Counted from the stretch's first letter, positions 6,101-27,547 are shown. The stretch: DNA of 36,092 nt from Elusimicrobiota bacterium (GCA_028718185.1 JAQUMH010000018.1:1-36092), one strand, 5' to 3'. A program made the numbers and translations. Notes: generated from the letters alone by a model not told the origin.

Positions 6101-9100
6101 TATCATAAATGGATAAAAGAAATATGCGAAACAATCCCAAATGCTAAAATTAATGACCTGTCTAACTTGGGTGCGAAATACAAAGGTGATATAACTAAAT
6201 TGAAAATTGAACCTGGCACTATTAGTATCATCACAGTAGAAGGGCTTAATAAATTAGGGTTTAAGCAAGATACTTACGAACAGATGACTTATAAATTACA
6301 AGATGTTATTTCTGGGATAAATTCAACAAAAAGACAATCAGCATCAGAAGGGGCTCGCACAGATACTCTTGTTGGTACTGCTATAAAAGGTACAACCAAT
6401 AAAGTATATTTTGAGGACTTGGGGTTTGACCATATAATACTTGACGAAGCGCATAGGTATAAAAATATATTTACCTCTGCAAAAATAGAAAAAGGGGAAG
6501 CTAATGAATACAGCAGTGTTCGTGGTGGTCGCTCAAGTGCACGTGGTATCAAAACTTATCTTGCTACACAGTACATTCTTAATAAATATAACAATAGAGG
6601 GGTTTTTCTTCTGACTGCCACACCATTTACTAACAGTCCTATGGAATATTATTCTATGCTTAGCCTTCTTGCCAAAAAACGAATGGAAGAAAGTGGACTT
6701 AAAAATGTCAATGTATTTATGACGGCATTCATGGATATGAAAACATCTTTTGTTATTAAAGCGGACAGAACTCTTCAACAAGAAGATATTATAGAAAGAT
6801 TCAAAAATGCACGACAATTAAGACGTTTGATAAACGAATATTATGATTTCAAAACAGGTGAAGAGCTTGGTATAATCAGGCCAGAAAAAGCACGAAAGCC
6901 GGTAGTTATTAGGCCGACTGAGCTACAGTCAAAGTATATGTTGCAAGCCGAAGAGTTGTTTGACGATAAAGATGCCGGCGGACCAATTGTCGCCATAACT
7001 GAGTTGCAGAATATCACGCTTAGCCCGTTTCTTTCCCGGTATTGTGAGAAACCGCCTGAAAGTTACAAGGAGTTTATCGAAGCAAGCCCAAAAATACATT
7101 TTGTAATAGAGGCGATAAAACAAGTCAAGAAAGATAAACAAAATACCGGACAAATTATCTATATGCCACGGGGCGTAGAATATCACACGTTGGTAAAAGA
7201 ATATCTTATTAAGGAAGTGGGATACAAGCCAGAAGAGGTGGAAATTATTTCAGGTATTCATAACAACAGTGATAATGCTATAGATGATATACGGGACAGG
7301 TTTAATGCTGGACAGATAAAGGTTCTAATCGGAAGCGACACTATAAAAGAAGGGATTGATTTGCAAGAAAATACTACTGATTTATACACGCTTCATTTAC
7401 CTTGGAATCCGCTTGACCTTGAACAGATGGAGGGCAGATTGTGGCGTTATGGTAATAAGTGGGCAAATGTAAGGAGCACTTTCCCGCTCATTGAAAATAG
7501 CGTTGACCCATTCATATTTCAGAAATTGGAAACTAAATTAAAACGAATACAGAACGTCAGGACAGACAATACAAACGAAAGTGATGTTAGTGAATTAGAT
7601 TTCAGTGAACTCAAGCTTGACCTTATAACTGACCCCGCGAGACGTTTTGCGGCTGAAAAAACACTTCTGTTGAATGAAGAAAACAACAAATTGCTTATTG
7701 CGCGATCTGAAATAGCTTTCTTAGAAAATATAACCGAGAAAGTAGATACTATTTTAGAAAAAATAGAAAGAGAAAAAGAATACATTGAGCATTATAAGAA
7801 TTATAGAACTTCCGATGCAGAATACTTAAAAAGTCAAATTAAATACCGTGAAAACAAAATTGAGAGGTATGAAGAAACTTTAAAAACACATAAAGAAAAA
7901 TTAAAAGGTATTGATAAAAAAGACGTTGCTCATAAAATAGTAAAATTAAAAGCAGAATTACAGGAACCGGAGAAAAAAATAGAAAGTATAGAAAAGGAAT
8001 ATGAGAGAAAAATTAAAAATGCAAAAAAAGAACAAGTAGAAGCGAAGATTATACCCAATGATTTTACAAATGAAATAAGAAAAATAGAAGAAGAAAATAA
8101 AACATTTTTCGTTTTAATGAAAGATAAATTAAGGGTAGTACAACAAAAGAAAGAAGGGGAAGTCGTAAAAGAAAACAATGCTGTTTATAAAAGTGAGAAT
8201 GTTTTAGACCGAAGAAAAATACTTAAATTTGACGATACTGGCATTCCCTACGAAAAAATTTTAGATAATGTTCCCGGTGTCCAAACAATAAGAGAAGAAC
8301 TAAAAAAATATAAAGAACAGAAAATACGGCCTATAATCATAGCAGGGGATTTATCTGGTCTGTACGAATTTAACAATAAGTATGGTCGCGAAATTGCTGA
8401 TGGTGCAGTGGAAAAAGCTCTTGAAGTATTTGTCAATGAGTTTTCCAAGACTGGCGCTACGGTTGGGTCTCCTTCCGGTGATGAAATGTGGGGAGTACTA
8501 CCAAGAGACGCAAAAGTAGAAGAAGTCACAGAGCAACTAACCGGAGTTTTAAAAAAGATGAATAATATGGGTTATCAAGCAAACGATGACGTAGTAGGGC
8601 TTAATGCAAAATTTTATATTGGCAGAAAAAGTTTTGGTGATGTAGAAAAGTATCTTAAAAATGACCCCAAAACCGGAGAAGAGCTTCCACCTGGGGTAAT
8701 AGTAGTAGAAGGTGAATTGTTAAATTCAAAAGAGGATGTTATTATAAAACCGCAAGGAGTATCAAATGAAAGGATTGTGAGGGAATCTGATAGAGTTAAC
8801 CATAGTGTAAATGTTGCGAATGACGAACGGCTTGCTGAAAAAAGACATGAATATGAAAATGAGATGACAGGAGATTTGGGAATTGAAAAAGCATCAAAAA
8901 TAAATCCAACGTATCTACATAAAATCATAATCAATAATGAATTTGTTTTGGAAGGCGTAAAAGGATTGGCTTGGGAATCTAAACAAATGAAACATAAAAT
9001 GGAACAGACAGAAAAATTATTGAATGAAATCAATAATATAACTCCGGAACAAAAAGTAGAAGTCGGAAAGATTCTTAACAGTAAAACAGGTAAATCTATT

Positions 9101-9271
9101 TTGAACAAATATTCTCTAAATCCTGAAGATTGTATTGTGGCTGCGAGATATTGTTCAAATAAAGAAAACAACAAAGAAGAAGTTTTAAAAAGTGTACCCG
9201 ATGAAGATAAAAGAGGAATTATTAGAAACATTCAAAACGAAAAAGAAAACTCAATGGGATTAGAAATATGA
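3185..9271 (+). CDS. Polyvalent protein: RadC/JAB - N6-adenine methylase - SNF2-like helicase - GGDEF-like domain
   Basis: This 2028-residue protein joins several activities. Residues 1-140 are a RadC-like JAB/MPN domain with HNHPSGDP at 94-101. A second, degenerate JAB-like segment follows at about 165-270. An adenine-N6 methylase has NPPYG at 488-492, preceded by an ILEPSIGKGAFL SAM-binding motif. An SNF2-type ATPase has GAGKT (941-945), DEAH (1087-1090), LLTATPFTN and a C-terminal QMEGRLWRYGN motif. A Lys/Glu-rich coiled coil covers about 1490-1660. At about 1710-1815 lies a GGDEF-like domain, with DLSGLYEFNNKYGREIAD (1722-1739) and SGDEM (1764-1768). Similar methylase-helicase giants in phages and conjugative elements are known as polyvalent proteins, thought to enter recipients with the DNA and counter host defences. 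The GGDEF-like part is unusual; cyclase activity is unproven. Start coupled to the leader ORF. Confidence 0.9.
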   Translation: MYKSKSSIHLTLKETGFVQCNATHIASPDDVGILFSELRNTDRERLVTLSLDKENKILGTEVVSIGTLNSALVHPREVFKSPLFLNAKKIIFVHNHPSGDPTFSEDDIKLTKRLMKVGEMLGVEVLYHITIGDKECMCMDSAANFSHFLIPQKESLEFNRFPQLEISVNKISSILYEGQIEKPQDVYDIVKPIFNKDTPMAFALFLNSRNEIISLQALGGSEDSISNTHLHKTAILSNAASFIVCSNYELSIDKIKNMKNDANLTDIEMLDYINIYKKGEGLAYKSYKSGGYHPRTEAVAEKQVKYQYDIFEDFDKYQNKEEVVEKKTVEQKNQHLTNEQIEELIKLKNTFTEDEKNILMQYTGSGGLEKQGAEGRGLLDEYYTPIPVIEKIWQIIDNYVDMKEPLNILEPSIGKGAFLYGRDFNMDTIITGYEVSPISSKIAHALLTENDGCSVKIFNEPFESIFMDERGTKIQHKFTNSYDLVIGNPPYGDHRGRYKGLGEEPSIHEYDQYFLKRSLELVKEDGIVVFVMPSGFLRKKNNYAKEEISKLGFLLDAHRLPNAIFPTTDIGTDIVIFKKNSTKDIEIIKNRLESINNDSYFVSNPNKIVGLEKERKGRFGLEKYVEGNINDILNYETEKADEDKLLKYIDKKVKIDTLEVLTPTKTTTEPKEKKKIGTTLIINQKQDKIIPVKNNDISKKELELWLHTTATGEIDSKWLNSLTDRKDYDKQLNYYNGKYYNDFNYCQGNIYEKLDELESDTSSLSESVYIRQKEKLLTVLPKSVEIADLKLSPIDVLAKEIAFSDNQTLEDKFKHYLEFLSDDAFLNSSEWEVLQYIENRPVLGRDPVRNADVRRRRRSVANLLFNKYIKEELTTKEHVVLLEAYNRCRNAVAMPDYSKVPLLSNVFSTFKNKPLELRNCQYTGAGFLVNKGLGCLAHEVGAGKTLTSIIATNELLSRGWIQKPLFAVPKNVYHKWIKEICETIPNAKINDLSNLGAKYKGDITKLKIEPGTISIITVEGLNKLGFKQDTYEQMTYKLQDVISGINSTKRQSASEGARTDTLVGTAIKGTTNKVYFEDLGFDHIILDEAHRYKNIFTSAKIEKGEANEYSSVRGGRSSARGIKTYLATQYILNKYNNRGVFLLTATPFTNSPMEYYSMLSLLAKKRMEESGLKNVNVFMTAFMDMKTSFVIKADRTLQQEDIIERFKNARQLRRLINEYYDFKTGEELGIIRPEKARKPVVIRPTELQSKYMLQAEELFDDKDAGGPIVAITELQNITLSPFLSRYCEKPPESYKEFIEASPKIHFVIEAIKQVKKDKQNTGQIIYMPRGVEYHTLVKEYLIKEVGYKPEEVEIISGIHNNSDNAIDDIRDRFNAGQIKVLIGSDTIKEGIDLQENTTDLYTLHLPWNPLDLEQMEGRLWRYGNKWANVRSTFPLIENSVDPFIFQKLETKLKRIQNVRTDNTNESDVSELDFSELKLDLITDPARRFAAEKTLLLNEENNKLLIARSEIAFLENITEKVDTILEKIEREKEYIEHYKNYRTSDAEYLKSQIKYRENKIERYEETLKTHKEKLKGIDKKDVAHKIVKLKAELQEPEKKIESIEKEYERKIKNAKKEQVEAKIIPNDFTNEIRKIEEENKTFFVLMKDKLRVVQQKKEGEVVKENNAVYKSENVLDRRKILKFDDTGIPYEKILDNVPGVQTIREELKKYKEQKIRPIIIAGDLSGLYEFNNKYGREIADGAVEKALEVFVNEFSKTGATVGSPSGDEMWGVLPRDAKVEEVTEQLTGVLKKMNNMGYQANDDVVGLNAKFYIGRKSFGDVEKYLKNDPKTGEELPPGVIVVEGELLNSKEDVIIKPQGVSNERIVRESDRVNHSVNVANDERLAEKRHEYENEMTGDLGIEKASKINPTYLHKIIINNEFVLEGVKGLAWESKQMKHKMEQTEKLLNEINNITPEQKVEVGKILNSKTGKSILNKYSLNPEDCIVAARYCSNKENNKEEVLKSVPDEDKRGIIRNIQNEKENSMGLEI

Positions 9272-13807: not shown

Positions 13808-14509
13808 ATGAAAAAAATACTTATAATAGTTTTGATATCTTTAGTCATTTTGTTAATATGTGGTTTTTATAAATATAATAAATATAGGAATTTTGTATAT
13901 TGGGGCAATAGAGGTCTTAAAGAAACTAATGCTACAAAACAGATTGAGTGTTTTACTAACGCAATAAGAAGATGGCAGAATTCAGATGGCTATAATAATA
14001 AGGCGGTAGCCTATTATAACTTAGGTAATGGTTATTTTGCACAAGGGGAATATGAGAAAGCAATTGTTTTCTATGGCAAAACGATAGAGCTTAATCCTGG
14101 GCTTACTGCTGCCTATTATAACAGAGGACTTGCATATACCAAGAAAGGTGACTACGCCAGATCTATTATAGACTATAATAAAACGATAGAGCTTAATCCA
14201 AAACATGTAGGAGCATATTATAATAGAGGACTTTTTTATTTTGAGAAAAGTGATTATAAAAAAGCAATGTCGAATTTCATAAAGGCACAAGAAATAAATT
14301 CTAAATTATGGAATGTATTAATAGGAATAGCTTTTGTAAATATGAAGCAAACTAACTTCGTTAAAGCAAAATATTATTTTAAACAAGCAAAGGAATTGCA
14401 GTCATTATTAAATAACACCTCAGGATTATTTGAATTAGAAAAAAGAGGATATTTTTATACCAGTAAACAAAAAGATACAATCAAGGATTTGCGGTATTTA
14501 AAAGATTAA
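13808..14509 (+). CDS. Membrane-anchored TPR protein
   Basis: 233 residues. An N-terminal hydrophobic segment (ILIIVLISLVILLICGFY) anchors or exports it. TPR motifs run from about residue 60 to 195 (AYYNLGNGYFAQGEYEKAI, AYYNRGLAYTKKGDYARSI, AYYNRGLFYFEKSDYKKAM and a weaker fourth). TPRs mediate protein contacts. One base separates its stop from the adhesin ATG, so it is the first gene of the adhesin-PorV-T4SS run and may help assemble or export the adhesin. The upstream gap shows no clear promoter. Confidence 0.8.
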   Translation: MKKILIIVLISLVILLICGFYKYNKYRNFVYWGNRGLKETNATKQIECFTNAIRRWQNSDGYNNKAVAYYNLGNGYFAQGEYEKAIVFYGKTIELNPGLTAAYYNRGLAYTKKGDYARSIIDYNKTIELNPKHVGAYYNRGLFYFEKSDYKKAMSNFIKAQEINSKLWNVLIGIAFVNMKQTNFVKAKYYFKQAKELQSLLNNTSGLFELEKRGYFYTSKQKDTIKDLRYLKD

Positions 14510-14510
14510 A

Positions 14511-17500
14511 ATGAAAAAACCTTTTTTACTTTTTTTATATGTTTTTCTCTGGCCGATTACATTGTGTGCTATCGGCACTCAAATTTTTTCAGATAATATG
14601 GATAGCTTTCCTTCGGGATGGACAGTATATAACACTGGTGGTGGGGTAAGTTTTGACATATATACATCAACATATGTGAGTGCGTCTAGTTGTGCTTATG
14701 AGACAAATTATGGTAACAATTATGCAACAAATTATATGGAAAAAAGTATAAATTTAGCGGGTTATGATGATGCAAAAATAAAAAACAATGCGATCTGGAA
14801 TACGGCCGGTTGGTCAGGAAGCTCCCCTGCATATGGAAATTTTACATTAGAATATTATGATTCTTCATGGCATGTATTGTGGTCTACTGGAACCGATGGG
14901 AATTCTTATGCTCCGGCTAATTGGGTACATCAGGAAATAAGTGGAATACCCTCTTCTGCTATAAAATTTAGATTTCGTCATTATACGTATGATGGTTCCG
15001 CTCATGTTTATGGTGGGGTCGATGATGTTGTTCTTGTTGGAGAACATAAACCTGTTTTATCTTGGTCTGGTAATCCAGGATATGAAACAGGTGGAATAAG
15101 TTCAAATATCGGGACTTCAACAAATACTTATATATATGAGATAAAATATACCGATGCTGATAACGACGCTTCTTCAAGTGGATATCCGAGGGTTATAATA
15201 TCGTCGGGTAGTTACACGGTTAAAGTAATTACGATGAATTATGTCTCTGGAGCATATAATACCGGAGCGATTTATTCCACTTCTACGTTGCTTAGTCCGT
15301 GTAGTTATTATGAATACACTTTTCAGGCTACAGATGGTTGGTTGTCTGCTACTGACCTTTCAAGTACTGGTCCAAATGTACAAAGTAGTATTGCTGGTTA
15401 TGTCCTAGACCCTTTAGGTAATGGTATGCAAAACGTCATGGTCGCTCAAGATTTCGGAACCGGAACATCAATAAATACTATTGGTTCAGGATATTATTAC
15501 TTTTGCTTAACAAACGGACAAAGCTACACCGTCACCCCATCAAGTTTTGCTTATTACTCATTTACACCGAGTAACAGGACATATACTAATTTACAGGCAA
15601 ATCAAACTAACCAAAACTATACAAGAGTAAATAATTCAGCAAGTGCGGCATTATCTTGGACAGGAGAATCGGGGTATGAAACAGACGGATTAAATTTAGT
15701 TCTTGGTTCTACAAATACTGTATTTACTTATAGAATTAAATATACCGACCCTGATAACGACCTGCCTAAAACGGGAAACCCGGAATTGTATATAAAAAAA
15801 GGTGGAACAAATATTGCAGGAAGCCCTTTTATTATGAATCAAGTTGATTCTAACGATGTAAACTGTATTGATGGAAAATTGTATACTTACTCGACATTGC
15901 TATCTACGGGGGCAAATTATACTTATTCTTTCCAAGCATATGATATATGGAATACATCATCAACTTCACCATCAGAAGTAGATGCACCTGATGTGAGTAA
16001 TCAGCCGGTCCTTACTTGGACAGGTGAAGCAGGATATGAAAGTGATGGTGTGAGTCCGGATATTAACATTTCAACGGTAGCTTGTATTTATAGAGTTAAA
16101 TATACTGACCCCGATAATGACGCTCCTGCGAATGGCTATCCAAAGGTGCATATTAAGAAAGGCGGGGCTGAAATTTCTAATAGTCCTTTTTCAATGTCTT
16201 ATATGGCGGGAAATTATAATACCGGAGCGTATTATTCATATTCGATATCTCTCTCAACTGGCATTAATTATACTTACTATTTTGAAGCGAATGATATTTG
16301 GAACGCATCGGCAAATATAATATCTAATTCCGGGCCGCAAATAAGAACATATGCTAGGGGATATATAAAGGATACCAACAATAATCCAATGGGGAATGTT
16401 AAATTAGATTTATCGGGTTCTGAAACATCTACGCAATACACAAACACCTCTGGATACTATGAATTTTTAATTACAACTATGAGTTATGTTATTACGCCGT
16501 CAAGTTTTGCGTATTACTCGTTCAGTCCAGCAAATAGAGTATACACGAACACACAAACACACCAAGAAAATCAGGATTTTGCAAGGACGACTGCTGCTCC
16601 GGTTTTGTCCTGGACAGGAGAAGCGGGATACGAAGCAGACGGAGTAAGCCCGGATATTGGTACTTCTACTACAGCATTTACGTTTAATATAAAATACGCT
16701 GATTCGGATATAGACGCTCCTGCTGTTGGATATCCAAGGGTTATAATATCATCGGGTAGTTATACGGTTAAGGTAATAACAATGAATTATGTTTCCGGAG
16801 CATATAATACCGGAGCGATTTATTCTACGTCTACCTTGTTAAATACCTGTACTTATTATAATTACACTTATCAGGCAAAGGATGTTTACAACACTTCTGC
16901 AAGTGATTTATTGAAAAGCGGCCCGAGATTAAAAACGTGGGTTAGGGGTTATGTAAGAGACTCGGCCAATATTTTAATGCCCAATGTTAAAATAACACTT
17001 TCTGGCGATGAGTCTGGAATTACTTATACTGATATAGGTGGATATTACGAATTGTTGATTACAACAATGAGTTATACGGTTACGCCTTCAAGTTTTGCTT
17101 ATTATTCTTTTAGTCCAGCAAATAGAGTATACACAAATACACAGACACACCAAGAGAACCAGGACTACGCAAGAACAACTGCTGCTCCGGTTTTGTCCTG
17201 GACAGGTGACGCAGGATATGAAAGTGATGGCATAGAACCAGATATAAGTACATATACCGCTGTAATTGATTACAGAGTTAAATATACTGATTCTGACAAT
17301 GATTCCCCGGCGGTTGGATATCCGAGAGTTATAATATCATCAGGCAATTACACAGTTAAGGTAATAACAATGAATTATGTTTCCGGAGCATATAATACCG
17401 GAGCGATTTATTCTACGTCTACATTACTTAGTCCGTGCAGTTATTATGAATACACTTTTCAGGCAAAAGACATTTTTTCAACAGAAGCAACTGCAATAAC

Positions 17501-18749
17501 AGGGCTTGGTCCTGATACTCAGATTTCAATAAAAGGCTATTGTTTTTACCCGTCAGGAAGTGGTATGAAAGACGTTTCCGTTGTTTTGTCTGATGGGGTC
17601 AATACACAAACGGCTATAACTTCTTCTGTGGGTTATTACCAATTTACAGGACTAACTCCAGGATTTAATTACACTATAACACCTTCAAGTTTTGCGTATT
17701 ATTCTTTTACGCCAAGTAACAGGGTACATACAAATCTATATTCAGTGTTAACAAATCAAAATTTCACAAGAAATAATACATTGCCGACGTTATCTTGGAC
17801 AAACGAAGAACATTATTCTGCGTCTGGGGTTTACCCAACTATAGGTACACCAATTGTTGATAATTTTTCATTCAGAATAATGTACACTGATACGGAAAAC
17901 GATGCTCCTGAGTATGGGTATTGTTTATTACATATTTCTAAAAACGGAACAGAGATATCTAATAGCCCATTTACAATGAGCCAAGCTTCTTCTGAATATC
18001 TTAATGGGAAAGTGTGTTCGCATGTTATGTCTTTTCCAGTAGGCAGTAATAATTACTCATATTATTTTGTTGTCTTGGATTTATGGAGTGGGCAAACAAT
18101 AACAACACCGTCAAGAACCCTTTGTGTTTCTACCCCACCCACAATACCAAAAAACAAATCGGGTGACGCTATTGACGGTATGACCGTGGCGTCTTCGTTG
18201 GTTACTCTTAGGTGGTCTGCCTCTGATGATGATAATGATTCAATTACTTACAGGTTATATCTCAGCAGTCCTCAGATAGAAGGCAATTATAACCTTTCAA
18301 TAAAAAAATCTCTACAATATTCGTCCAGTATCTATGAAGGAACACAAAATTCATGTGTGTTAAGAAATCTTGTAGCTGGCAGAACATATTTTTGGAATGT
18401 TGATGCTGTTGATTCCTTTGGAGTGGTTACTCAAAGTCCTGTGTGGAGTTTTAAAACACTTGATATGTCTTCTAACAAGACATTTAATTACCCTAACCCA
18501 TTTAACCCAAACAAAGAACAGACTCGGATAGTGTTTAAAGTTAACAGTCCTCAAATAGTGAAACTAAGGCTCTATTCCGAATATGGTGATTTAATATATC
18601 AGAAAGATATCGATGCTGTAGCAGGAACAAATGAGTTTTACTACGACGGTAAAGATGATAAAGGTAATACTTTGTTTAATGGGTCATATATTTGTAGAAT
18701 AGAAAAAATCGAAGGGGCAAGTAAGTGTTATATTTTAGTGATAAAATGA
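14511..18749 (+). CDS. Large repeat-built surface protein with T9SS/FlgD-like sorting domain
   Basis: 1412 residues with a signal peptide (first ~20). Residues 25-178 form a jelly-roll-like module. Two module types then alternate: type A (starts LSWTGEAGYE, contains KYTDPDNDAP) at about 180, 379, 500, 695, 893 and 1090, and type B, a carboxypeptidase-regulatory-like fold ending PSSFAYYSFSPANR, at about 293, 614, 809 and 1006. A fibronectin III-like domain covers about 1208-1310. The last ~93 residues carry NYPNPFNP and end KCYILVIK, matching the FlgD-like/T9SS type A sorting domain. It is probably a surface adhesin. It overlaps the PorV-like gene (ATGA) and lies in the same run as the T4SS genes, which suggests a mating-contact role. 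Confidence 0.85.
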   Translation: MKKPFLLFLYVFLWPITLCAIGTQIFSDNMDSFPSGWTVYNTGGGVSFDIYTSTYVSASSCAYETNYGNNYATNYMEKSINLAGYDDAKIKNNAIWNTAGWSGSSPAYGNFTLEYYDSSWHVLWSTGTDGNSYAPANWVHQEISGIPSSAIKFRFRHYTYDGSAHVYGGVDDVVLVGEHKPVLSWSGNPGYETGGISSNIGTSTNTYIYEIKYTDADNDASSSGYPRVIISSGSYTVKVITMNYVSGAYNTGAIYSTSTLLSPCSYYEYTFQATDGWLSATDLSSTGPNVQSSIAGYVLDPLGNGMQNVMVAQDFGTGTSINTIGSGYYYFCLTNGQSYTVTPSSFAYYSFTPSNRTYTNLQANQTNQNYTRVNNSASAALSWTGESGYETDGLNLVLGSTNTVFTYRIKYTDPDNDLPKTGNPELYIKKGGTNIAGSPFIMNQVDSNDVNCIDGKLYTYSTLLSTGANYTYSFQAYDIWNTSSTSPSEVDAPDVSNQPVLTWTGEAGYESDGVSPDINISTVACIYRVKYTDPDNDAPANGYPKVHIKKGGAEISNSPFSMSYMAGNYNTGAYYSYSISLSTGINYTYYFEANDIWNASANIISNSGPQIRTYARGYIKDTNNNPMGNVKLDLSGSETSTQYTNTSGYYEFLITTMSYVITPSSFAYYSFSPANRVYTNTQTHQENQDFARTTAAPVLSWTGEAGYEADGVSPDIGTSTTAFTFNIKYADSDIDAPAVGYPRVIISSGSYTVKVITMNYVSGAYNTGAIYSTSTLLNTCTYYNYTYQAKDVYNTSASDLLKSGPRLKTWVRGYVRDSANILMPNVKITLSGDESGITYTDIGGYYELLITTMSYTVTPSSFAYYSFSPANRVYTNTQTHQENQDYARTTAAPVLSWTGDAGYESDGIEPDISTYTAVIDYRVKYTDSDNDSPAVGYPRVIISSGNYTVKVITMNYVSGAYNTGAIYSTSTLLSPCSYYEYTFQAKDIFSTEATAITGLGPDTQISIKGYCFYPSGSGMKDVSVVLSDGVNTQTAITSSVGYYQFTGLTPGFNYTITPSSFAYYSFTPSNRVHTNLYSVLTNQNFTRNNTLPTLSWTNEEHYSASGVYPTIGTPIVDNFSFRIMYTDTENDAPEYGYCLLHISKNGTEISNSPFTMSQASSEYLNGKVCSHVMSFPVGSNNYSYYFVVLDLWSGQTITTPSRTLCVSTPPTIPKNKSGDAIDGMTVASSLVTLRWSASDDDNDSITYRLYLSSPQIEGNYNLSIKKSLQYSSSIYEGTQNSCVLRNLVAGRTYFWNVDAVDSFGVVTQSPVWSFKTLDMSSNKTFNYPNPFNPNKEQTRIVFKVNSPQIVKLRLYSEYGDLIYQKDIDAVAGTNEFYYDGKDDKGNTLFNGSYICRIEKIEGASKCYILVIK
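15180..17470 (+). repeat. Near-identical coding repeats within the adhesin
   Basis: Segments beginning near 15180, 16729 and 17318, each about 150 bases, encode almost the same peptide (YPRVIISSG.YTVKVITMN and onward through YNTGAIYSTSTLL). The first and third differ at roughly 18 bases, nearly all third-codon positions, with one amino-acid change (Ser to Asn). A second repeated segment, PSSFAYYSFSPANRVYTN, recurs near 16500 and 17090. These are internal duplications kept constant at protein level. Confidence 0.85.
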
Positions 18750-20692
18750 AAAACATAGGGTACAAAACCATTAAGGCATTAAATAAAATGTCGATAATTG
18801 CATTTATGAGAGCCGTTTTACCTCTGATGGTTGTATTTTTCTGTTTTTCGTGTGTTCTTGAGAATTATTCTTTTGCTGCAACAGGATATAGAAGTAATTT
18901 TTTAAGCTATGGTCCTGGTGTTGCCGCTATGGCAATGGGTGATACTTTTACTGCTTACGGAAATGATATGTCGGTTATTTATTATAATCCTGCCCTGCTT
19001 GGCAAACTTGACGGCGAAGAAGTATCGGCAAATCATTGGTTTTTGTTTGATACCGCAAGGTATGATTTTGTTGGTTTTTCGTCTGCGGGAGACAACAGCG
19101 CTTTTGCTCTTGCAGGAACTCAATTTTATAGAGGAAACATTGAAGTTAGAACAAAGATAGATGATGTGGAAACCAAAACAGAAAATAACCAGATGGCGAT
19201 TTACGGTGCATACGCAGGATATATTAATAGTATAAAATTAAATTATGGTGGGTCTTTGAAATGGCTTAATTATAATATGAACACTGAAAACGGAACCGGA
19301 TTCGGTTTAGATATCGGGTTAGCAAAACAACTTCTCATGACCGGTAATCCAGTTGGAAGAAAAATCGTTATTAACTCGGGTGTTTTGTTTCAGAATCCGT
19401 TACAGGTGAGTATGAAAATGATTGATACAAAAGAAGATTTGCCGGTCGCAGTTAAGCTTGGGCTTTCCGGTAGCATGACTGTTTTTCCAAAATACAGTAA
19501 GATTAAAGATAAATTATCATATGACGATATTTTGATTGCAACAGATTTAACTTATTCTGATAAAAACCTGTTGTATTCCTTTGGTGTACAATACATGCTT
19601 TATGAATTCGCAATGTTTAGGCTTGGTTGGAAACAGGGTTTAACTGCAGGTTTGGGGTTCTTGTTGTCTGATTTTCAGCTTGATTATGCGTTTGTATCGA
19701 AAGATTTTACTAATTTTCACAAAATTGGTTTTAGTTACAGGTTTGGTAAAAAAGAAGATATTGAAACTAAAATTGCCCCCACGTTTACAGAAGAATTTCA
19801 AAAGGTATATCAACAGTCGTGCAGGATATATGATAGGTTTTTTAGAGAGGCAACAACATATGCCGAGTTGGAAAAATACGAAGAAGCAATTATATTACTT
19901 AAAAAGGCGATACCGCTCAAACCAGAAGATAATTCGCCCGCAAAACAATTATTGAACACTTGCGAACAGACAATCATTGCTAATAAAATGAACGTCTATA
20001 TTACAGAGGCGAGAAAAAATATAAGTAAAAATAATTTTGTAGAAGCGTATAAATCATACTTAAAAGCGTTCGATATAAACCCTGAAGACAAAAATATAAA
20101 AACATTTTTAGACGATATTTATGACCGTGTGTCGCAACCAGTGAAAAAAGCAGACCCAAATAAAATCATGATTGACAAAGTAATATATGAATATTCGCAG
20201 GGAATAGAAAACAATATCAATTCTATGCTTGAAAAAAATGATTTTAATAGAGCAGAGAAAGAATTTACAAAACTACACCTGTTAATACCTGAGTTAGAAC
20301 AAACAAAAACAGTTAAAAGAAAAATAAAAGACAGAAAGGACTTGTATGTATACAGCTTTGTAACAAAGGGTATAAAATGTCTTGGAGAAGATAAGCCGGA
20401 TGAAGCATATTTTAATTTTTCAGAAGCAGCAAAATTAAGTCCCGATGATACGGGTATAAAAGACCAAAAAGAGATAGCAAAAAAGAAATATCTTGCAAAG
20501 AAAAAATATTCAATAGAAGATAATGTATATTCAGATAAGCTGTATTGTCTAGCTGCTATTAACTTTGCTACGGATGAGACATCTTTGTCTACATATGAAG
20601 AATTGAAAAATTTCAATACTGTATATGAAAGCTTGCCTGTATTAGAAAATGCTTTACTTGACGCTAATTTAATACAGAGACAAAAGCCATAA
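18746..20692 (+). CDS. PorV/UPF0164-like outer-membrane barrel fused to TPR domain
   Basis: 648 residues from ATG 18746 (overlapping the adhesin stop; GTG 18725 is also in frame). A hydrophobic export signal ends near the cleavage-like SFAATG (about residue 50 region). Next comes the PorV/PorQ hallmark GPGVAAMAMGDTFTAYGNDMSVIYYNPALL and a beta-barrel to about residue 340. A helical C-terminal half holds TPR-like repeats (YEEAIILLKKAIPLKPED; FVEAYKSYLKAFDINPED). PorV proteins shuttle type IX secretion cargo to the cell surface. Immediate coupling to a gene with a T9SS-like sorting domain makes a cargo/shuttle pair likely. A plasmid-borne PorV with TPR fusion is unusual. Confidence 0.85.
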   Translation: MKNIGYKTIKALNKMSIIAFMRAVLPLMVVFFCFSCVLENYSFAATGYRSNFLSYGPGVAAMAMGDTFTAYGNDMSVIYYNPALLGKLDGEEVSANHWFLFDTARYDFVGFSSAGDNSAFALAGTQFYRGNIEVRTKIDDVETKTENNQMAIYGAYAGYINSIKLNYGGSLKWLNYNMNTENGTGFGLDIGLAKQLLMTGNPVGRKIVINSGVLFQNPLQVSMKMIDTKEDLPVAVKLGLSGSMTVFPKYSKIKDKLSYDDILIATDLTYSDKNLLYSFGVQYMLYEFAMFRLGWKQGLTAGLGFLLSDFQLDYAFVSKDFTNFHKIGFSYRFGKKEDIETKIAPTFTEEFQKVYQQSCRIYDRFFREATTYAELEKYEEAIILLKKAIPLKPEDNSPAKQLLNTCEQTIIANKMNVYITEARKNISKNNFVEAYKSYLKAFDINPEDKNIKTFLDDIYDRVSQPVKKADPNKIMIDKVIYEYSQGIENNINSMLEKNDFNRAEKEFTKLHLLIPELEQTKTVKRKIKDRKDLYVYSFVTKGIKCLGEDKPDEAYFNFSEAAKLSPDDTGIKDQKEIAKKKYLAKKKYSIEDNVYSDKLYCLAAINFATDETSLSTYEELKNFNTVYESLPVLENALLDANLIQRQKP

Positions 20693-20710
20693 TTACAGTA
20701 GAATGTAAAA
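20692..20710 (+). promoter_or_regulatory. Repeated intergenic motif before the pilin gene
   Basis: ATTACAGTAGAATGTAAA here matches ATTACAGTAGAACATAAA at 28092-28109 at 16 of 18 positions; a shorter relative (TTATAGTAGAATAAAA) is at 9485. Two of the copies lie directly upstream of conjugation genes (virB2-like and virD4-like). Function unknown: a regulator site or an mRNA processing site are both possible. Confidence 0.35.
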
Positions 20711-20719
20711 GGAGGTATT

Positions 20720-21016
20720 ATGAGTAAAAGAAGTGTTGTTGTTTGGTTGTTGGTTGTTGGTTTTGTTGTGGCGGTTGGACAGGGTTCTGCTTTTGCCTAT
20801 GGTGAACAGATTGAAAGTTCTCTTGGTAATCTTTTTAACTGGATAACGAAAGTTCTCGGTGGTGCGGCGGTGCTTGGTGGATTAATATTCACCGGAATAA
20901 GAGTTTCAATGCACGATGAAAATGCGTTCAAAACAGGACTCAAGGTTATCGGTGGAGGAATAATCATTTTTGCAGCAAAAAATATAGTTGACCTGCTACA
21001 GGCGATATTTAAATAA
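20720..21016 (+). CDS. virB2: VirB2/TrbC-like major pilin
   Basis: 98 residues with AAGGAGGT upstream. A long signal sequence ends near GSAFA-YGEQ. Two hydrophobic segments follow in the mature part (VLGGAAVLGGLIFTGI and VIGGGIIIFAAKNIVDLL), the standard VirB2/TrbC layout. The protein would form the conjugative pilus shaft. The following gene order VirB3-VirB4 confirms the assignment. Confidence 0.9.
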   Translation: MSKRSVVVWLLVVGFVVAVGQGSAFAYGEQIESSLGNLFNWITKVLGGAAVLGGLIFTGIRVSMHDENAFKTGLKVIGGGIIIFAAKNIVDLLQAIFK

Positions 21017-21018
21017 TT

Positions 21019-21309
21019 ATGAAACCAGTATACACTTATAAAGCATTGTCAAATACCATATTTTTCTTTGGTTTCCAGCCTATTGACGTGGGTATAATAC
21101 TGGTTTCCACTTTAATGGTATGGGGTGGTACAAATTCATATAAAATAGGTCTTGTTTGGCTTTGTTTGGTGTTTTTTCTCGGCAAAAAGTTGAAACATAG
21201 GTCTGGCGGGTCAGAAAAAGCTTTTTTGCTTTTTATGACCACACCTAACAAGTTGGGTGTAAGCACCAGAGATATCCCGGCTTATCGGAGTATAAAATGC
21301 CAAAAATAA
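21019..21309 (+). CDS. virB3: VirB3-like T4SS membrane protein
   Basis: 96 residues, starting two bases after the pilin stop. It has two closely spaced hydrophobic segments (IDVGIILVSTLMVWGG and IGLVWLCLVFFLG), then a basic tail (KKLKHRS). Small proteins of this shape between VirB2 and VirB4 are VirB3/TrbD, which sit with VirB4 in the inner membrane. Its end overlaps the VirB4 start by 13 bases. Confidence 0.85.
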   Translation: MKPVYTYKALSNTIFFFGFQPIDVGIILVSTLMVWGGTNSYKIGLVWLCLVFFLGKKLKHRSGGSEKAFLLFMTTPNKLGVSTRDIPAYRSIKCQK

Positions 21310-23768
21310 ATCCGACTACTATCAGAGATATATTCCAAACATCTAAACTCCCGTCCGTACACCAACTTCTTAACCTTTGGGCGGTAGAAGATGAAGCAAT
21401 AGTCGGGTTAGATCTACAAATGACATTTGCATACGAGATTATTCTGCCGGACTTAACTGTAAAATCAGATGAAGAATTAAAAGATTATTTTCAGATGATA
21501 AAAAATTGCTTACACTCTTTGCCTGATAATACGACATTGCAATTTCTTGTAAAAATTACAAAAGGTGCAGAAGAAAAAATAAAGGAATACCAAGACACCA
21601 CACACCCTGCAGACGATGTAGCTAAACTGATTGTTGATAATAAATTAGAGCATCTAAGAAGTGTTTTTACACAGACACGTAGATATTTTATGTTTTTGAC
21701 AACCACATCGACGAATAATGATACAAAAAAACTAAAAACACCTATGTTTTCTATAATCAACGATAACTTCAAAAAAATAACCCAAGGAATACATGATGTA
21801 AGAATTGAAAAACTGAAAGAAATATCTCGAAGTATTATTTCTTTGTTAAACGGAATAGGCATACCTACTATAATACTAGATGAAAAAGCAATAAGTGACC
21901 TTTTTTACAATCATTTGAATCCGGGCCGGGCTGAAACTCTCGGGCTTGGTAAAATAGATAAAGAGAAAACGCTACGCTCACAAATATGTTTCAATGCCTG
22001 CAAAAACGAATTTGACCATGTATATATCGACGGTTATTATTATCGGGCGGTAAATCTGCATATTCGTCCGGAGACAATAGATTTTTCTATGTTTTATAGA
22101 CTTATGTCATGTTTAAGTCCTGACTGCGATGTTTCTGTTGCCTTAAATACAAGCAATCAAGACGACCTTATTAAACAAGTTCAACTTACGGGAACGATTG
22201 CAAAAAACATCAATCAGCTAAGCGGTTTCAAAAAAAATTATGAAGCACAATCAAAATCAGATGAAGCCGACCAACTTATAGACGAGATAAAAACAACATT
22301 CCAAAAACTATTCAATTATTCATTTACCGTTGTTTTAAAAGAACGCACTCTTGAAAAACTCACTGCTAAAACAAATGCTTGTCTTCAACTTTTCCGACTG
22401 CTTGGGGAATCTGAGGGTATAATAGATGATATGAATCATCTATTGCTTTTTCTGTCTGTATTACCAAATCACAGCCACTTGAACTTCAAGAAACACGTCT
22501 TCCAGTCAGAAGCAGTATCGCAGATGATACCTACTTCGGCGTCCTGGACTGGAAGTAAAGAACCGAAAATCCTTTTCCAAACAGAAGACGACCAACTTTT
22601 GCCAATTAATCTTTTTGATCCCTTATTACCTGCAAAACACGGTCTTGTGTTAGGACAAACAGGTGGCGGCAAATCTTTTACCACAAATTTCCTTCTTACT
22701 AACTTTTTCATCGAATCTGAAAAAAATCATATAGTAATAATTGACGTGGGTGGCAGTTACAGAAAATTATGTAAACTGTTTGGCGGGCAGTATCTCGAAA
22801 TAGAACTTTCTGAAGAATTCGCCTTTAATCCTTTTCCGTCAAAAGAAATGGCCATTATCAAACGTAAAGATACAGAGGCTGGGATTGAAATAGAATTAGA
22901 TAATGATGTTGTGTCCTTTTTAACCAATTTGATACAAAAAATGTTGAAGCTTCCTAGTTTAGAAGGTAAAGAACAGAAAATATTTGAAAATGCTATAACA
23001 GAGACATATAAACACAGTAAAATGGACCCGCCATTATTAAATTCACTACATTATCAACTACTTAATTACAAGGGTGACGAATCTGATAAAAAAATTGCAA
23101 AAGAATACGGAAAAAATCTTGAATTTTGGACTACCGGCAGATACGGCCGTTTGTTAAATAGACCAAGTTCATTAAAAGCAGATGCAAGAATAGTCGTTTT
23201 TGATTTACAAAAACTTAATGAAGAGCCGGATCTCCAATCCGTCATATTCTTTTTAATCTCTTCTGTAATTGAAAATAAATTAAAAGATAAAACACTCAAA
23301 AAAATGATTGTTATTGATGAGGGCTGGAAATTTTTTAATGACGAGGTTGGGTCTCTTCTTATTCAAAATCTCTATCGCACAGCCAGAAAATTTAACGCCG
23401 GTATCCTTTCCATATCACAAAGCCCGGTAGATTTTCTTTCTACTAAAGCCGCAAATGCAATAATTTCCAACTCTTTTATAAAATATATTCTGCGGTTAAA
23501 GACAGGGTTTGACTTGCTTACACAGTTTGAGCTTAATCAGCAGGAAATAGAAAAAGTAAAAAATCTGCGCAGTGAAAGTGGTAAATATAAAGAAGTTTTC
23601 TTAAAATTTTCAGAACATAATCGGGTTATAAAAATCCATCCGTCAAAATTAGATTATTGGATATGTACAACTGACCCTAATGACACAATGACTGAAAATA
23701 TAATGCGTGAAAAACATCCTGACTGGTCTGATTGGCAAATAATAAAAGGACTGGCAGGAATAAAATAA
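21297..23768 (+). CDS. virB4: VirB4-family T4SS ATPase
   Basis: 823 residues. Walker A is GQTGGGKS at 453-460, and Walker B (MIVIDEGWKF) has its Asp-Glu at 674-675. The motif NAGILSISQSP is a typical late VirB4 motif. The N-terminal ~400 residues form the CagE/TrbE/VirB4 domain. The protein powers pilus assembly and substrate transfer. It is the only VirB-type ATPase seen apart from the coupling protein; no VirB11 gene is present on the circle. Confidence 0.95.
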   Translation: MPKINPTTIRDIFQTSKLPSVHQLLNLWAVEDEAIVGLDLQMTFAYEIILPDLTVKSDEELKDYFQMIKNCLHSLPDNTTLQFLVKITKGAEEKIKEYQDTTHPADDVAKLIVDNKLEHLRSVFTQTRRYFMFLTTTSTNNDTKKLKTPMFSIINDNFKKITQGIHDVRIEKLKEISRSIISLLNGIGIPTIILDEKAISDLFYNHLNPGRAETLGLGKIDKEKTLRSQICFNACKNEFDHVYIDGYYYRAVNLHIRPETIDFSMFYRLMSCLSPDCDVSVALNTSNQDDLIKQVQLTGTIAKNINQLSGFKKNYEAQSKSDEADQLIDEIKTTFQKLFNYSFTVVLKERTLEKLTAKTNACLQLFRLLGESEGIIDDMNHLLLFLSVLPNHSHLNFKKHVFQSEAVSQMIPTSASWTGSKEPKILFQTEDDQLLPINLFDPLLPAKHGLVLGQTGGGKSFTTNFLLTNFFIESEKNHIVIIDVGGSYRKLCKLFGGQYLEIELSEEFAFNPFPSKEMAIIKRKDTEAGIEIELDNDVVSFLTNLIQKMLKLPSLEGKEQKIFENAITETYKHSKMDPPLLNSLHYQLLNYKGDESDKKIAKEYGKNLEFWTTGRYGRLLNRPSSLKADARIVVFDLQKLNEEPDLQSVIFFLISSVIENKLKDKTLKKMIVIDEGWKFFNDEVGSLLIQNLYRTARKFNAGILSISQSPVDFLSTKAANAIISNSFIKYILRLKTGFDLLTQFELNQQEIEKVKNLRSESGKYKEVFLKFSEHNRVIKIHPSKLDYWICTTDPNDTMTENIMREKHPDWSDWQIIKGLAGIK

Positions 23769-23788: not shown

Positions 23789-24514
23789 ATGAAAAGATAT
23801 TTTGTTGTTCTTCTTTTGATGTTTATGGTTTGTTCAACAAATGCTTTTGCGGTGTTTGGTTTTACTGAGGATATTAATCACGCGTACGACGCGATATATC
23901 AAGCGTTTGTGAAAAATGAAATGGTAGTACAAACTAAAATTATGCTTCAAAATTATAACCAAAGTAAACAATATTATGAAGATGTAAAAAGTATGTCAGA
24001 ACATAAGGGCGGGATTGGTGGTTATTATGCGGAACAAATAAAAAATGATATTGACCGCGCAAATGCAAACACCTACAGCCGATTACAAAATTATATGAAC
24101 TCCGATCCTGATGACACCGCATATGTCAGAAAATGGGTTACGGGCGCAAATACATATCTTACAAATAAAACAGATTATTCAAAAGAAATAGATGCTATTG
24201 GAAAAAAAAGGGATGAAGATTTAAAAAAATTGACGGAAAAATCCAAAAAAACAAAAATGACTGATGAAGACCAAAATATATATAACAAAGAAAGAGATTT
24301 GCTTCTTCTGAGGTATCTTTCAGGAATTGACAAGGGCATTAAGTCGCTCCTAGAGGAAAGAACAGAACAGAAACAACAAGATGCGGCAAGACAGCTGGAA
24401 TGGCTTAGAAACGAGGAAAATTCAGCTAAAAACATAAAAGCCAACAATGCCCAACTTTACAACCAGCGACCTAAAAAAGATGTCTACCAAATACTGAAGG
24501 AGGTACCTAAATAA
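23789..24514 (+). CDS. VirB5/TrbJ-like exported protein
   Basis: 241 residues with a clear signal peptide (cleavage near TNAFA) and a long, charged, helical body (YSKEIDAIGKKRDEDLKKL; RDLLLLRYLSGIDKGIKSLL). Length, export, helical content and position directly after VirB4 fit the VirB5/TrbJ minor pilin, which sits at the pilus tip or base. Sequence similarity alone is weak. Its stop overlaps the next start by one base (TAATG). Confidence 0.7.
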   Translation: MKRYFVVLLLMFMVCSTNAFAVFGFTEDINHAYDAIYQAFVKNEMVVQTKIMLQNYNQSKQYYEDVKSMSEHKGGIGGYYAEQIKNDIDRANANTYSRLQNYMNSDPDDTAYVRKWVTGANTYLTNKTDYSKEIDAIGKKRDEDLKKLTEKSKKTKMTDEDQNIYNKERDLLLLRYLSGIDKGIKSLLEERTEQKQQDAARQLEWLRNEENSAKNIKANNAQLYNQRPKKDVYQILKEVPK

Positions 24515-25497
24515 TGATATTTGCGCCCTATTGTGAAGTGTTAAGCATTCCGGAAGCTGTAATGCCAGCTTATCTGTGTATTAAAACAATCGCATATATT
24601 CTTTTCCCGCTTATGTTCGCTTTGCATGTGCTGGATAAGTTAACCGGTGCTATTCATTCGCCTGGTGGTGACAATGAAATCAACTGGTATAAGACCATAT
24701 TCAGGGCAATCCTTGTTTTTGTCGCTCTTGCATGGTATAGACATATATTTATGAAAATTCTTGCATTGTGTGAAGCGATAGGAATGTCTTTGTGTGACAT
24801 GAGTAAATTTTCTTCACTCATAGACTTTATTACAACACAAAGTTATTCTTATATCAAGGGTACCGTTGGAGATAGTGCAACAGGAAAAGTTCTCGGTGGA
24901 ATAAACGCCACTTTGGCTATACTACAACCGAAAATTCTTATTTTAAGTATACTCTATATCCTTGTCGGCATTATTGAAAGTATTTTCTTGTCTGTTCGCT
25001 ACTTATTGCTTGCAATTTTATATGTTTTTGGTCCTTTTGCTATTGTTTTAAACCTTTTCAGATACACAAAGGTAATACTAAAGGGGTGGCTTGTTGCCGT
25101 TTTCCAAATTTCTGCTTGGATTATAATACTTCGTATATTGCAGGCAACAATGGTTTCGTTACAAATTGAGAACTGGGCTTACCAACAAGGACAAACTATG
25201 AAAGATATGTTGCCATGGATAACAGTTTGTCTTATATATGTCGCCCTTGTAGTATTGGTTCCTATGATTACCGCTAAAATAATATCAGGTGAAAATTTAG
25301 GCGAGATTGGAAGTCTGGCTATAGGTGCAGCAACAATGCTCGTTACCAGATATAGTGCTCCCGCAATTAAAACAGGAAATACTGCAGTAAAAGGAATTTC
25401 AAAAACATACAGTAATGTAAAAGACCGGGTTTCTGGTTGGAGAGGCAGAGGGTCGTCTTCCAAAGATACTGAACATAAAGAACAGCCTAGGAGGTAA
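24514..25497 (+). CDS. virB6: VirB6/TrbL-like polytopic membrane protein
   Basis: 327 residues with about six hydrophobic segments (starting near IAYILFPLMFALHVL and ending near ITVCLIYVALVVLVPMI), then a basic, Ser/Gly-rich tail (VSGWRGRGSSSKDT). AAGGAGG precedes the coupled ATG. VirB6/TrbL proteins form part of the inner-membrane channel. Order and topology support this call. Confidence 0.85.
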   Translation: MIFAPYCEVLSIPEAVMPAYLCIKTIAYILFPLMFALHVLDKLTGAIHSPGGDNEINWYKTIFRAILVFVALAWYRHIFMKILALCEAIGMSLCDMSKFSSLIDFITTQSYSYIKGTVGDSATGKVLGGINATLAILQPKILILSILYILVGIIESIFLSVRYLLLAILYVFGPFAIVLNLFRYTKVILKGWLVAVFQISAWIIILRILQATMVSLQIENWAYQQGQTMKDMLPWITVCLIYVALVVLVPMITAKIISGENLGEIGSLAIGAATMLVTRYSAPAIKTGNTAVKGISKTYSNVKDRVSGWRGRGSSSKDTEHKEQPRR

Positions 25498-25498
25498 C

Positions 25499-26155
25499 AT
25501 GTTAGGCAAAAAAGAGAGCAATGGCACAAAAACAGTAGAACAGAAACCAAGTAAATACTTCGAGATATTTGGTGATACAATAAATCAGCTTAATTTTTTA
25601 AAAAAGTGTTGTTTTTTTCTTATAATGCTTGCTATATTCGAGTCTATTATTATTGTAAAGAGCATAAACAAATTGCCTTTAGTGTTACACGTTGATTCGA
25701 TTGGCAATGCTCAGGTAGTAAAATATGACAAGTCAATTCTTGCAGTAAGTCCGATTGAGGTTTCTAACTTCACTCAATATTTTATCCAGTATTTCTCAGC
25801 ATACGATTTTCACGCTTATGACGATAACTTTACGAGGGCTTTCAAAATGATGACAGAAGAATGTCAGCGTAAGCTCAATGATTATTTGACGATAAATAAT
25901 GTTGTTGATAACATAAAAAGTAATCAGTTAAAAACCACACTTAAAATTAGTAATATTACTACAATTAACGATTCTAAGGATTGGATAGATTTAAAGGTTA
26001 AAGGAACAAGAGAAGTCCGGTCTTATCAAAACACTGATTTTAATAGAGAGGAAATTTTTGAAGCAGAAATGTCAATTAAAAAAGTTAAAAGAACCGAAAA
26101 TACACCTTGGGGGTTATTGGTAGACGCTTGGAGCGAGACCCTTTTTAAAAAATGA
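25499..26155 (+). CDS. virB8: VirB8/TrbF-like T4SS protein
   Basis: 218 residues with AGGAGGT upstream. A cytoplasmic N-terminus, one membrane span (CCFFLIMLAIFESIIIV) and a ~170-residue periplasmic domain match VirB8/TrbF. The periplasmic part has the expected helix then strand pattern (FTRAFKMMTEECQRKL, then TLKISNITTI and WIDLKVKGTREV). VirB8 nucleates the T4SS core. Its TGA overlaps the next ATG. Confidence 0.8.
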   Translation: MLGKKESNGTKTVEQKPSKYFEIFGDTINQLNFLKKCCFFLIMLAIFESIIIVKSINKLPLVLHVDSIGNAQVVKYDKSILAVSPIEVSNFTQYFIQYFSAYDFHAYDDNFTRAFKMMTEECQRKLNDYLTINNVVDNIKSNQLKTTLKISNITTINDSKDWIDLKVKGTREVRSYQNTDFNREEIFEAEMSIKKVKRTENTPWGLLVDAWSETLFKK

Positions 26156-26940
26156 AAAACTTAATCCTTTATAGTACTATTTTTTTAGTTTTACTCCTTG
26201 TTTTCTTCGTTGACTGGGGGAACCATAGCCCGTATCCACCCATACCAGCCGGGCTTCTTTACAGTTCATATATAAGCAGTAAAACAATTGTATCGGAACA
26301 GGTTACTGATACCATACTTTACAAAGCAAAGCATGTCGACGCCGGGTTACCGACACTTCTAATATACAGCGAACTTAATATTCCAAATAATTTTATTGGA
26401 AAAAAGGTAGATAAGAAAAACTCTGATTATGTTGTTTCTCTTCCTACAACAAAACAAAAATCCTTTATCAATCCTTCACAAAAAGAAACTGCTTCAAAAA
26501 CAATAACAAAAACTGTTACACCAACAGCGCCCGTAGACTACACAGTAGAAAAACAGGAAACCGAATTAGTTTTTAACTTCAATACCTTAAATAATATTAT
26601 CAAAAAAGCCGATAAAACATATTTCTTTTCAGGAAAGGAAAATACGATAAACGATGTCACTGTCCGCATTTATTCTACTACACCATGGCAAGAAAAAAAC
26701 ATAGTTAAGTTTAAAGTAATAAACTCACAGCAAAAATACTTTTTTATAGCGAATGTATCACTTTATGAACAACAACAACTTATAGCGGCTGAAATATACA
26801 ATGAACCTTTAGTAGCACCAGAAAAAACTGGTGAGTTTATAGTTCTACTTCCAATCCAGAAACAAAAACAAATAACATTAAAACTCACAGAAAGTGGCGA
26901 TAAAGGACGAGTATTTTCTATTGCTTTTGATATACCTTAA
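26152..26940 (+). CDS. Envelope protein in the T4SS cluster (VirB9-position, unassigned)
   Basis: 262 residues. A hydrophobic N-terminus (LILYSTIFLVLLLVFFV) is followed by PPIPAGLL and a Thr/Lys-rich linker (about 95-130). A beta-rich C-terminal domain follows (TVRIYSTTPW, FIANVSLYEQQQLIAAEIY). It occupies the slot where VirB9/TrbG is expected, between VirB8 and a VirB10-like gene, but I cannot match VirB9 motifs. The IPAG segment also resembles the start of the VirB10 barrel domain, so VirB10 may be split across this and the next gene. Confidence 0.6.
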   Translation: MKNLILYSTIFLVLLLVFFVDWGNHSPYPPIPAGLLYSSYISSKTIVSEQVTDTILYKAKHVDAGLPTLLIYSELNIPNNFIGKKVDKKNSDYVVSLPTTKQKSFINPSQKETASKTITKTVTPTAPVDYTVEKQETELVFNFNTLNNIIKKADKTYFFSGKENTINDVTVRIYSTTPWQEKNIVKFKVINSQQKYFFIANVSLYEQQQLIAAEIYNEPLVAPEKTGEFIVLLPIQKQKQITLKLTESGDKGRVFSIAFDIP

Positions 26941-26950
26941 AGGAGGAATT

Positions 26951-27547
26951 ATGAAAAAAATGCTTTTGGTTTTATCCATTGTTTGCTGTAGTAATCTATT
27001 TTGTGCTGACTGGAATGGTCCAACAGAAAAACACGAAACAAAAATGCGATATTTTATGCACACTGGCTTTACTTTTGATGCAGTCCTAAAAACTGCTATA
27101 TTTTCTTTTAATACAATTTCACCAGTAATCGCCCAAACAGAATATGATATCAGTTTTCTTGGGAAAGTGATAATCCCAAAATACACAAAACTTATCGGCT
27201 CGTGTAATATTGAAAAATCTGTGGATAGGGTTAATGTCGTATTTCATACAATTGTCTTTCCTGATGGTCAGGAAATCAAATTTATGGGTCTTGCCTTACA
27301 TACAGACGGCTCTGGCGGAATCCCTGGCAAGGTTAATAAACAGAAAGCACGTCTGCCAGCAAAAATACTTCTTTCGGCAGCTGCAACAGGGGCAAGTGTT
27401 GCCTCTGGAAACGATATTCCGGCACAAATGATAAAGGGCATTGCGGATGACACACAGCAAGAAATGGCAGGTAAGCAGGACTATTCCATAACTATAAAGA
27501 AAGATATAGCTATACAAATATATGTCGTTGACAGATTAGAATATTAA
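26951..27547 (+). CDS. VirB10/TrbI-like protein, short exported form
   Basis: 198 residues from ATG 26951, chosen because AGGAGGAATT directly precedes it; an upstream in-frame ATG at 26894 lies inside the previous gene. A signal peptide (to about NLFCA) is followed by a VirB10-type barrel domain: FLGKVIIPKYTKLIGS, then RVNVVFHTIVFPDGQEI and DGSGGIPGKVN. Typical VirB10 is about 400 residues, with a cytoplasmic end, a membrane span and a proline-rich stalk; all three are missing here. It therefore could not link inner and outer membranes alone. It may work with the preceding protein. Confidence 0.75.
   Translation: MKKMLLVLSIVCCSNLFCADWNGPTEKHETKMRYFMHTGFTFDAVLKTAIFSFNTISPVIAQTEYDISFLGKVIIPKYTKLIGSCNIEKSVDRVNVVFHTIVFPDGQEIKFMGLALHTDGSGGIPGKVNKQKARLPAKILLSAAATGASVASGNDIPAQMIKGIADDTQQEMAGKQDYSITIKKDIAIQIYVVDRLEY

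Follow-up and report, generated by a model that had tools for sequence, protein, structure and literature searches.

A type IX-like adhesin and PorV barrel pair in the conjugation gene cluster of Elusimicrobiota

In the plasmid described herein, a gene for a large repeat adhesin with a sorting-type C-terminal domain (CTD) and a gene for a PorV-like outer-membrane barrel lead directly into virB2, virB3 and virB4. This arrangement raises the question of whether a cargo protein and shuttle resembling those of the type IX secretion system (T9SS) have merely landed beside a type IV secretion system (T4SS) or belong to the mating machine, and, in the latter case, what they might do there.

The plasmid and its adhesin/PorV gene run

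The window, the whole stretch of 36,092 nucleotides analysed here, is a circular plasmid with a unit of 35,965 bases, as indicated by an identical terminal overlap of 127 bases. Its host is a 3.03-Mb Elusimicrobiota genome in 27 contigs, and among named organisms its VirB4 is closest to Elusimicrobiota. The genes include those for ParA, a TraD coupling protein and a MOBF relaxase as well as virB2-virB10, making this, by content, a conjugative plasmid, and the hallmark domains of a VirB/D4-type T4SS (TrwC relaxase, TraD coupling protein and TraC/VirB4 ATPase) are all present. The features are as follows.

345-3005, plus strand: MOBF (TrwC) relaxase-helicase (PF08751)
13808-14509, plus strand: TPR protein, 233 aa (TPR families)
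14511-18749, plus strand: repeat adhesin, 1412 aa (CarboxypepD_reg and SdrD_B in Pfam, sub-threshold FlgD_ig; PorU-model match at the CTD end)
18468-18746, plus strand: adhesin CTD, last 93 aa (alignment A3; AF2 tail model; fold match to latent PorU)
18746-20692, plus strand: PorV-TPR, 648 aa (NF033709; 6h3i_F profile match; AF2 and fold matches)
20720-21016, plus strand: virB2-type pilin, directly 3' of PorV-TPR (PF04956, TrbC/VirB2 pilin)
21019-21309, plus strand: virB3-like, by position and homologues between virB2 and virB4 (no Pfam match)
21297-23768, plus strand: virB4/TraC-type ATPase (TraG P-loop and TraC domains)
23789-24514, plus strand: virB5/TrbJ-like, by position and homologues (no Pfam match)
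24514-25497, plus strand: virB6-like membrane protein, by position and homologues (no Pfam match)
25499-26155, plus strand: virB8 (PF04335)
26152-26940, plus strand: virB9-slot protein (no Pfam match; CagX N-domain undetectable)
26951-27547, plus strand: short virB10 (PF03743; signal-peptide-like start and outer-membrane, O-layer, domain only)
28109-29752, plus strand: TraD-type coupling protein (PF10412, TIGR02759)

The window also encodes a 2028-aa protein (3185-9271) with an apparent RadC-like start followed by N6-adenine methyltransferase and helicase parts, which is common on such plasmids by impression only. A locus from another family (L057, G221:C137) has a relaxase 52% identical to that of the plasmid, a large methyltransferase-helicase 38% identical over part of its length, and an adhesin and PorV start in common with the plasmid, and represents a related plasmid backbone.

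The gene run is tightly spaced. A single base separates the TPR protein gene from the adhesin gene, the adhesin stop and the PorV-TPR start overlap as ATGA at 18746-18749, gaps of 27 bases and 2 bases follow before virB2 and virB3, respectively, and virB3 and virB4 overlap by 13 bases. All of these coordinates and spacings agree to the base with those of an earlier note on this DNA, and no terminator-like site was found between PorV and virB2 in the sequence, a result that concerns the DNA and not the transcripts themselves. The same note had counted the 233-aa TPR protein at 13808 as a member of the module. This protein adjoins the adhesin, but no homologue has been reported in related T4SS loci, and its candidacy as a conserved part was rejected.

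The adhesin combines a signal-peptide-like start (judged by eye), CarboxypepD_reg-type repeats and a T9SS-like CTD. Its C-terminus scored 22.9 bits against FlgD_ig, under the 27-bit cut-off, and the CTD sequence matched the CTD chain 8glj_D weakly (E 0.06). However variable the remainder, the CTD with a YPNPFNP motif (at approximately 18489-18509 in the plasmid) and a terminal Lys is conserved across the adhesins in alignment A3. The AF2 model of the tail (pLDDT 83.3) comprises a fibronectin-III-like domain and an Ig-like CTD; fn3 pairs make up most of its fold matches, and latent PorU of P. gingivalis ranks third. In related loci the adhesins range from 279 to 2203 aa and carry Kelch, fn3 or CarboxypepD-like repeats where scanned, so that passenger length and domains differ between loci and the CTD and PorV are kept.

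PorV-TPR starts at ATG 18746 (an alternative GTG at 18725 would give 655 aa) and consists of an outer-membrane PorV-type barrel (approximately 18896-19744) followed by C-terminal TPR helices (approximately 19784-20662). Against the PorV/PorQ family NF033709, with its cut-off of 90, the protein scored 88.1 bits and the genome match 90.4 bits (E 8e-25), and the profile match to PorV 6h3i_F reached E 1.5e-15. The AF2 model (pLDDT 85.5) shows a FadL-type barrel of 14 strands and a helical TPR part. In the PDB the model is closest to PorV, the fold being matched best by 8gl6_F (2.8e-13), which is PorV in the RemA-CTD-bound SprA complex, and by 6h3i_F (4.2e-11), from another SprA complex, with FadL-type channels next at 3e-5.

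Conservation and origin of the pair

A sample of 295 genomes of the phylum was searched with the plasmid PorV and then with VirB4. The PorV search returned full-length relatives with surroundings ordered as adhesin, PorV-TPR, virB2, virB3 and virB4. Related VirB4 proteins, defined at E <= 1e-60, were present in 21 of the 295 genomes, including that of the window, and every one of these 21 had a PorV gene with the T4SS genes, in 20 cases on one contig with the virB genes; in G125 PorV and the T4SS genes lie at the ends of two contigs that have 36 bases in common there and would join in the expected order. A CTD adhesin stands beside PorV at every locus with a long enough contig (weak in G052), usually in the order CTD adhesin, PorV, virB2, with the pair placed between virB8 and virB10 in G275 and probably G214, and with frame-broken copies in G292. 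The PorV and VirB4 tree distances are strongly correlated (Mantel r 0.89, a value that none of 5000 permutations reached), and the two trees agree in 10 of 18 splits.

The earlier note had proposed a search for pairs of PorV and sorting-domain proteins beside virB4, whose absence from all related plasmids was to count against a T9SS-like cargo/shuttle module; the pairing was recovered in all of these T4SS-bearing genomes, so that this test did not refute the module, although the TPR protein's membership falls away. The wider proposal of the note, a mating-aggregation device that borrows the T9SS of the host, is thereby supported in part, the aggregation role and the use of the host machinery being conjectural. 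These results also bear on the simplest alternative, namely that one of many host-type PorV/cargo pairs landed beside virB2 by chance. PorV is indeed dense in the host, with 53 PorV/PorQ-family matches (NF033709) in 3.03 Mb, but at this density the probability of meeting a PorV gene on the same strand in the 5 kb before virB4 is about 0.04 per locus, against a pairing found in 21/21. Because related genomes are non-independent, this figure and the Mantel values give the strength of association and not exact probabilities. In addition, the tree separates the plasmid PorV from those of the host. Chance neighbourhood is therefore refuted by the comparative data and was rejected, its probability being negligible. 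Taken together, the comparison of sequences gives good support to the view that the cargo and shuttle pair forms an integral part of the conjugation cluster in Elusimicrobiota.

A VirB4 profile scan of GTDB genomes yielded 79 loci, among which PorV with a CTD adhesin was found in the Elusimicrobiota loci with enough flank and in two others, L103 and L105. The former, from an unlabelled bacterium, has the same matches as a contig of G094, an Elusimicrobiota genome. The latter (PGXE01000008.1), labelled as a Thermoplasmata archaeon, carries a full PorV-positive T4SS with a PorV closest to an Elusimicrobiota one, and its contig is probably a mis-binned plasmid. With the models used, neither PorV nor a CTD adhesin was detected in the Omnitrophota, Bdellovibrionota-type, deltaproteobacterial or more distant T4SSs, and no PorV-family gene exceeded the cut-off in nine sister genomes. 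The sister T4SSs (Omnitrophota and Bdellovibrionota-type; L109, L110, L113-L125) resemble that of the plasmid in the order virB2-B3-B4-B6-B8-B9-B10, with VirB4 proteins 25-35% identical, but lack the adhesin and PorV and retain a CagX-type VirB9 and a full-length VirB10. Among PLSDB plasmids no PorV-TPR relatives were found and all VirB4 relatives were under 60% identity, and scans of IMG/VR with VirB4 and PorV gave nothing confirmed.

Two further observations were made at these loci. In L112, a complete chromosome (CP096137.1), a T4SS, adhesin and PorV are present with the adhesin, PorV and VirB4 frames split, representing either a decayed element or sequencing errors. Protein starts resembling NEI(N/R)Y(Q/T/N)G(R/K)L recur near adhesin/PorV pairs (L105:3732-4766, L045:6898-8226, L174:6110-6946 and L177:13354-14367), one of them with a phage tail collar domain.

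Regarding the origin of the pair, four label changes are needed on the PorV tree to account for the T4SS-linked PorVs, and a single T4SS PorV clade was accordingly rejected. The 20 PorVs sampled from the host chromosome fall outside the plasmid's part of the tree, and the tree gives no support to the plasmid gene as a recent host copy. The plasmid PorV cluster sits in a 26-row group (100/99) together with PorVs beside small CTD adhesins lacking a T4SS. Two of these T4SS-free pairs, from two other Elusimicrobiota families, each consist of a small CTD adhesin and a PorV-TPR and head Tad-pilus operons (L052:392-13998 and L176:6318-17691) encoding a lipoprotein, a secretin, a T2SSE-type ATPase and TadE/G-like proteins; the same kind of pair also occurs alone, on contigs without T4SS genes. 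The tree and the Tad-linked pairs suggest that the pair is a building block joined to at least two kinds of pilus machine and, since it is also found with Tad operons or free of any machine, that it is not specific to mating.

Such pairs, with Tad pili and alone, speak for the alternative that the plasmid pair displays a surface protein for some other plasmid interest, such as surface exclusion, or biofilm formation or substrate attachment by the host. Moreover, the passenger repeats are 40-50% identical to surface proteins encoded on the host chromosome (approximately 30-50% across the host chromosomal proteins compared). However, the fixed place in the T4SS cluster across the phylum and the co-inheritance with VirB4 fit mating better than general cargo, and we consider this alternative improbable.

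Type IX-like components in the host and the core of the T4SS

Display of the adhesin through a type IX-like route would depend on components of the host. The PorU sortase model matched 50 places in the host genome, essentially all at the CTD end and including the plasmid adhesin, which gives about 50 CTD proteins, and FlgD_ig matched 34 places. Of the 52 host PorV matches examined, 17 are preceded on the same strand by a CTD-type domain that ends no more than 500 bases away, and 28 by one no more than 2.5 kb away; thus, the host organism commonly places a cargo gene before a PorV gene. A 1726-aa host ORF matched SprA/Sov (E 6e-35; 119.8 bits against a cut-off of 200), and near this ORF lie a further PorV gene and the gene of an M6 peptidase whose sorting domain exceeds the TIGR04183 cut-off. 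SprA/Sov-like ORFs were present in all 21 T4SS-bearing genomes, with E values down to 1e-24 by stretch, all below the curated cut-off. The GldM/PorM motor protein was unmatched in the host genome, as it was in the controls.

The T4SS itself departs from the canonical outer-membrane core of a CagX-type VirB9 and an inner-membrane-spanning VirB10. In PorV-positive T4SSs (16 loci, one a duplicate) VirB10 is short, the outer-membrane domain being all that follows a signal-peptide-like start, whereas in 11 PorV-negative sister loci it has a cytosolic tail and a TM-like segment. Leaving aside the two Omnitrophota sequences from which the model was built, the VirB9 N-domain was detected in nine PorV-negative sisters and was undetectable in every PorV-positive locus (window 26152-27547 and the related L095-L112); the C-terminal part of the window's virB9-slot protein weakly matches, by profile, the C-domain of Omnitrophota VirB9. 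In the T4SS no bridge other than VirB10 is known to connect the inner- and outer-membrane parts (PMC12857230). With its inner-membrane segment missing, something else should bridge the membranes, and PorV-TPR may be one candidate.

These differences, together with the position of PorV directly before virB2 in most loci, could mean that PorV-TPR is (also) a structural outer-membrane subunit of the T4SS that compensates for the absence of the VirB10 bridge and of the ring of VirB9 N-domains; the adhesin would then extend the channel at the cell surface. Nevertheless, the short VirB10 and the loss of the VirB9 N-domain are confounded with phylum, amounting to one clade split, and CTD cargo always accompanies PorV where the flank is readable, as expected of a shuttle. 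Furthermore, the PorV proteins of G060 and G052 lack most of the TPR part, and the same PorV type exists without any T4SS. A structural role of this kind therefore seems unlikely. A broader proposal, that the VirB9 ring and VirB10 bridge were lost and PorV-TPR with its CTD adhesin was built in, so that type IV and type IX parts form one phylum-wide diderm mating apparatus, is somewhat less so, yet still doubtful.

A proposed dedicated cargo and shuttle for mating contact

The presence of the pair in every related mating machine sampled looks like a built-in grip on mating partners. Herein, we favour, with a probability of roughly 0.6, the reading that the conjugation machine has a T9SS-type cargo and shuttle of its own, namely the adhesin and PorV-TPR, which are built into it to display the adhesin for mating contact. 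First, the adhesin would reach the periplasm via its signal peptide. Second, its CTD would pass through the SprA/Sov-like translocon of the host. Third, the plasmid's own PorV-TPR would collect the adhesin and hold it on the cell surface, where the variable passenger repeats may attach to a partner cell or to a surface and make mating contacts more stable. We infer this export route, the PorV-CTD binding, the surface location and the mating role from the gene anatomy, the phylum-wide T4SS linkage, the co-inheritance with VirB4, the PorV and CTD sequences and predicted folds, and the SprA-like ORFs.

Several known systems resemble parts of this arrangement. In Bacteroidota, T9SS type B cargo with PorP/SprF (SprB-SprF and PG1035-PorP; PMC12618676, PMC9143113) likewise pairs an adhesin-like cargo bearing a CTD with a dedicated FadL-family barrel whose gene comes immediately after, and secretion of type B cargo in Flavobacterium needs the barrel encoded immediately downstream (PMC12618676). 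The outer-membrane barrel of such pairs collects or anchors its cargo, to which the plasmid pair may be likened; however, the plasmid encodes a PorV-type barrel extended by TPRs and a FlgD_ig/type A-like CTD, and does so inside an Elusimicrobiota conjugation operon. The PorV shuttle with type A cargo (the SprA-PorV-RemA CTD complex; 8gl6, 6h3i) is similar in predicted barrel fold and, with scores around the cut-off, in family, and the model of the adhesin tail has the PorU tail among its mostly fn3 fold matches, but Flavobacterium has one general PorV, whereas here there are 53 PorV matches, paired genes, a TPR fusion and a plasmid-borne copy.

On the conjugation side, Gram-positive bacteria use surface adhesins (PMC12857230). 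PrgB of pCF10, an LPxTG, sortase-anchored protein, is likewise a plasmid-borne adhesin encoded with conjugation genes and using a host surface-anchoring route (PMC12857230); the present pair differs in its diderm cell, its T9SS-like route instead of sortase and its dedicated barrel, and its mating role is presumed. TraN of F-type plasmids is comparable in that it too is encoded on the plasmid, lies in the outer membrane and is thought to act in mating contact (PMC12857230), but is unlike the plasmid pair in being without a CTD or T9SS route. A literature search, thin on subscription journals and without bioRxiv preprints, found nothing linking PorV or the T9SS with conjugation, and within the same limited coverage PorV in Elusimicrobiota was undescribed, with one unrelated match. 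Thus, the parts are known; what appears to be undescribed is that they are combined, and that every sampled T4SS of this VirB4 type from the phylum has them.

Diderm conjugation thereby gains a candidate mating adhesin that is dedicated and displayed, a counterpart to those that Gram-positive plasmids have anchored by sortase, and T9SS-type surface display, described almost entirely in Bacteroidota, would be tied to conjugation in a mostly uncultured phylum. The missing VirB10 bridge makes the connection of two membranes by such a channel a question in its own right. Moreover, the combination of a variable passenger with a fixed CTD makes the choice of mating partner testable.
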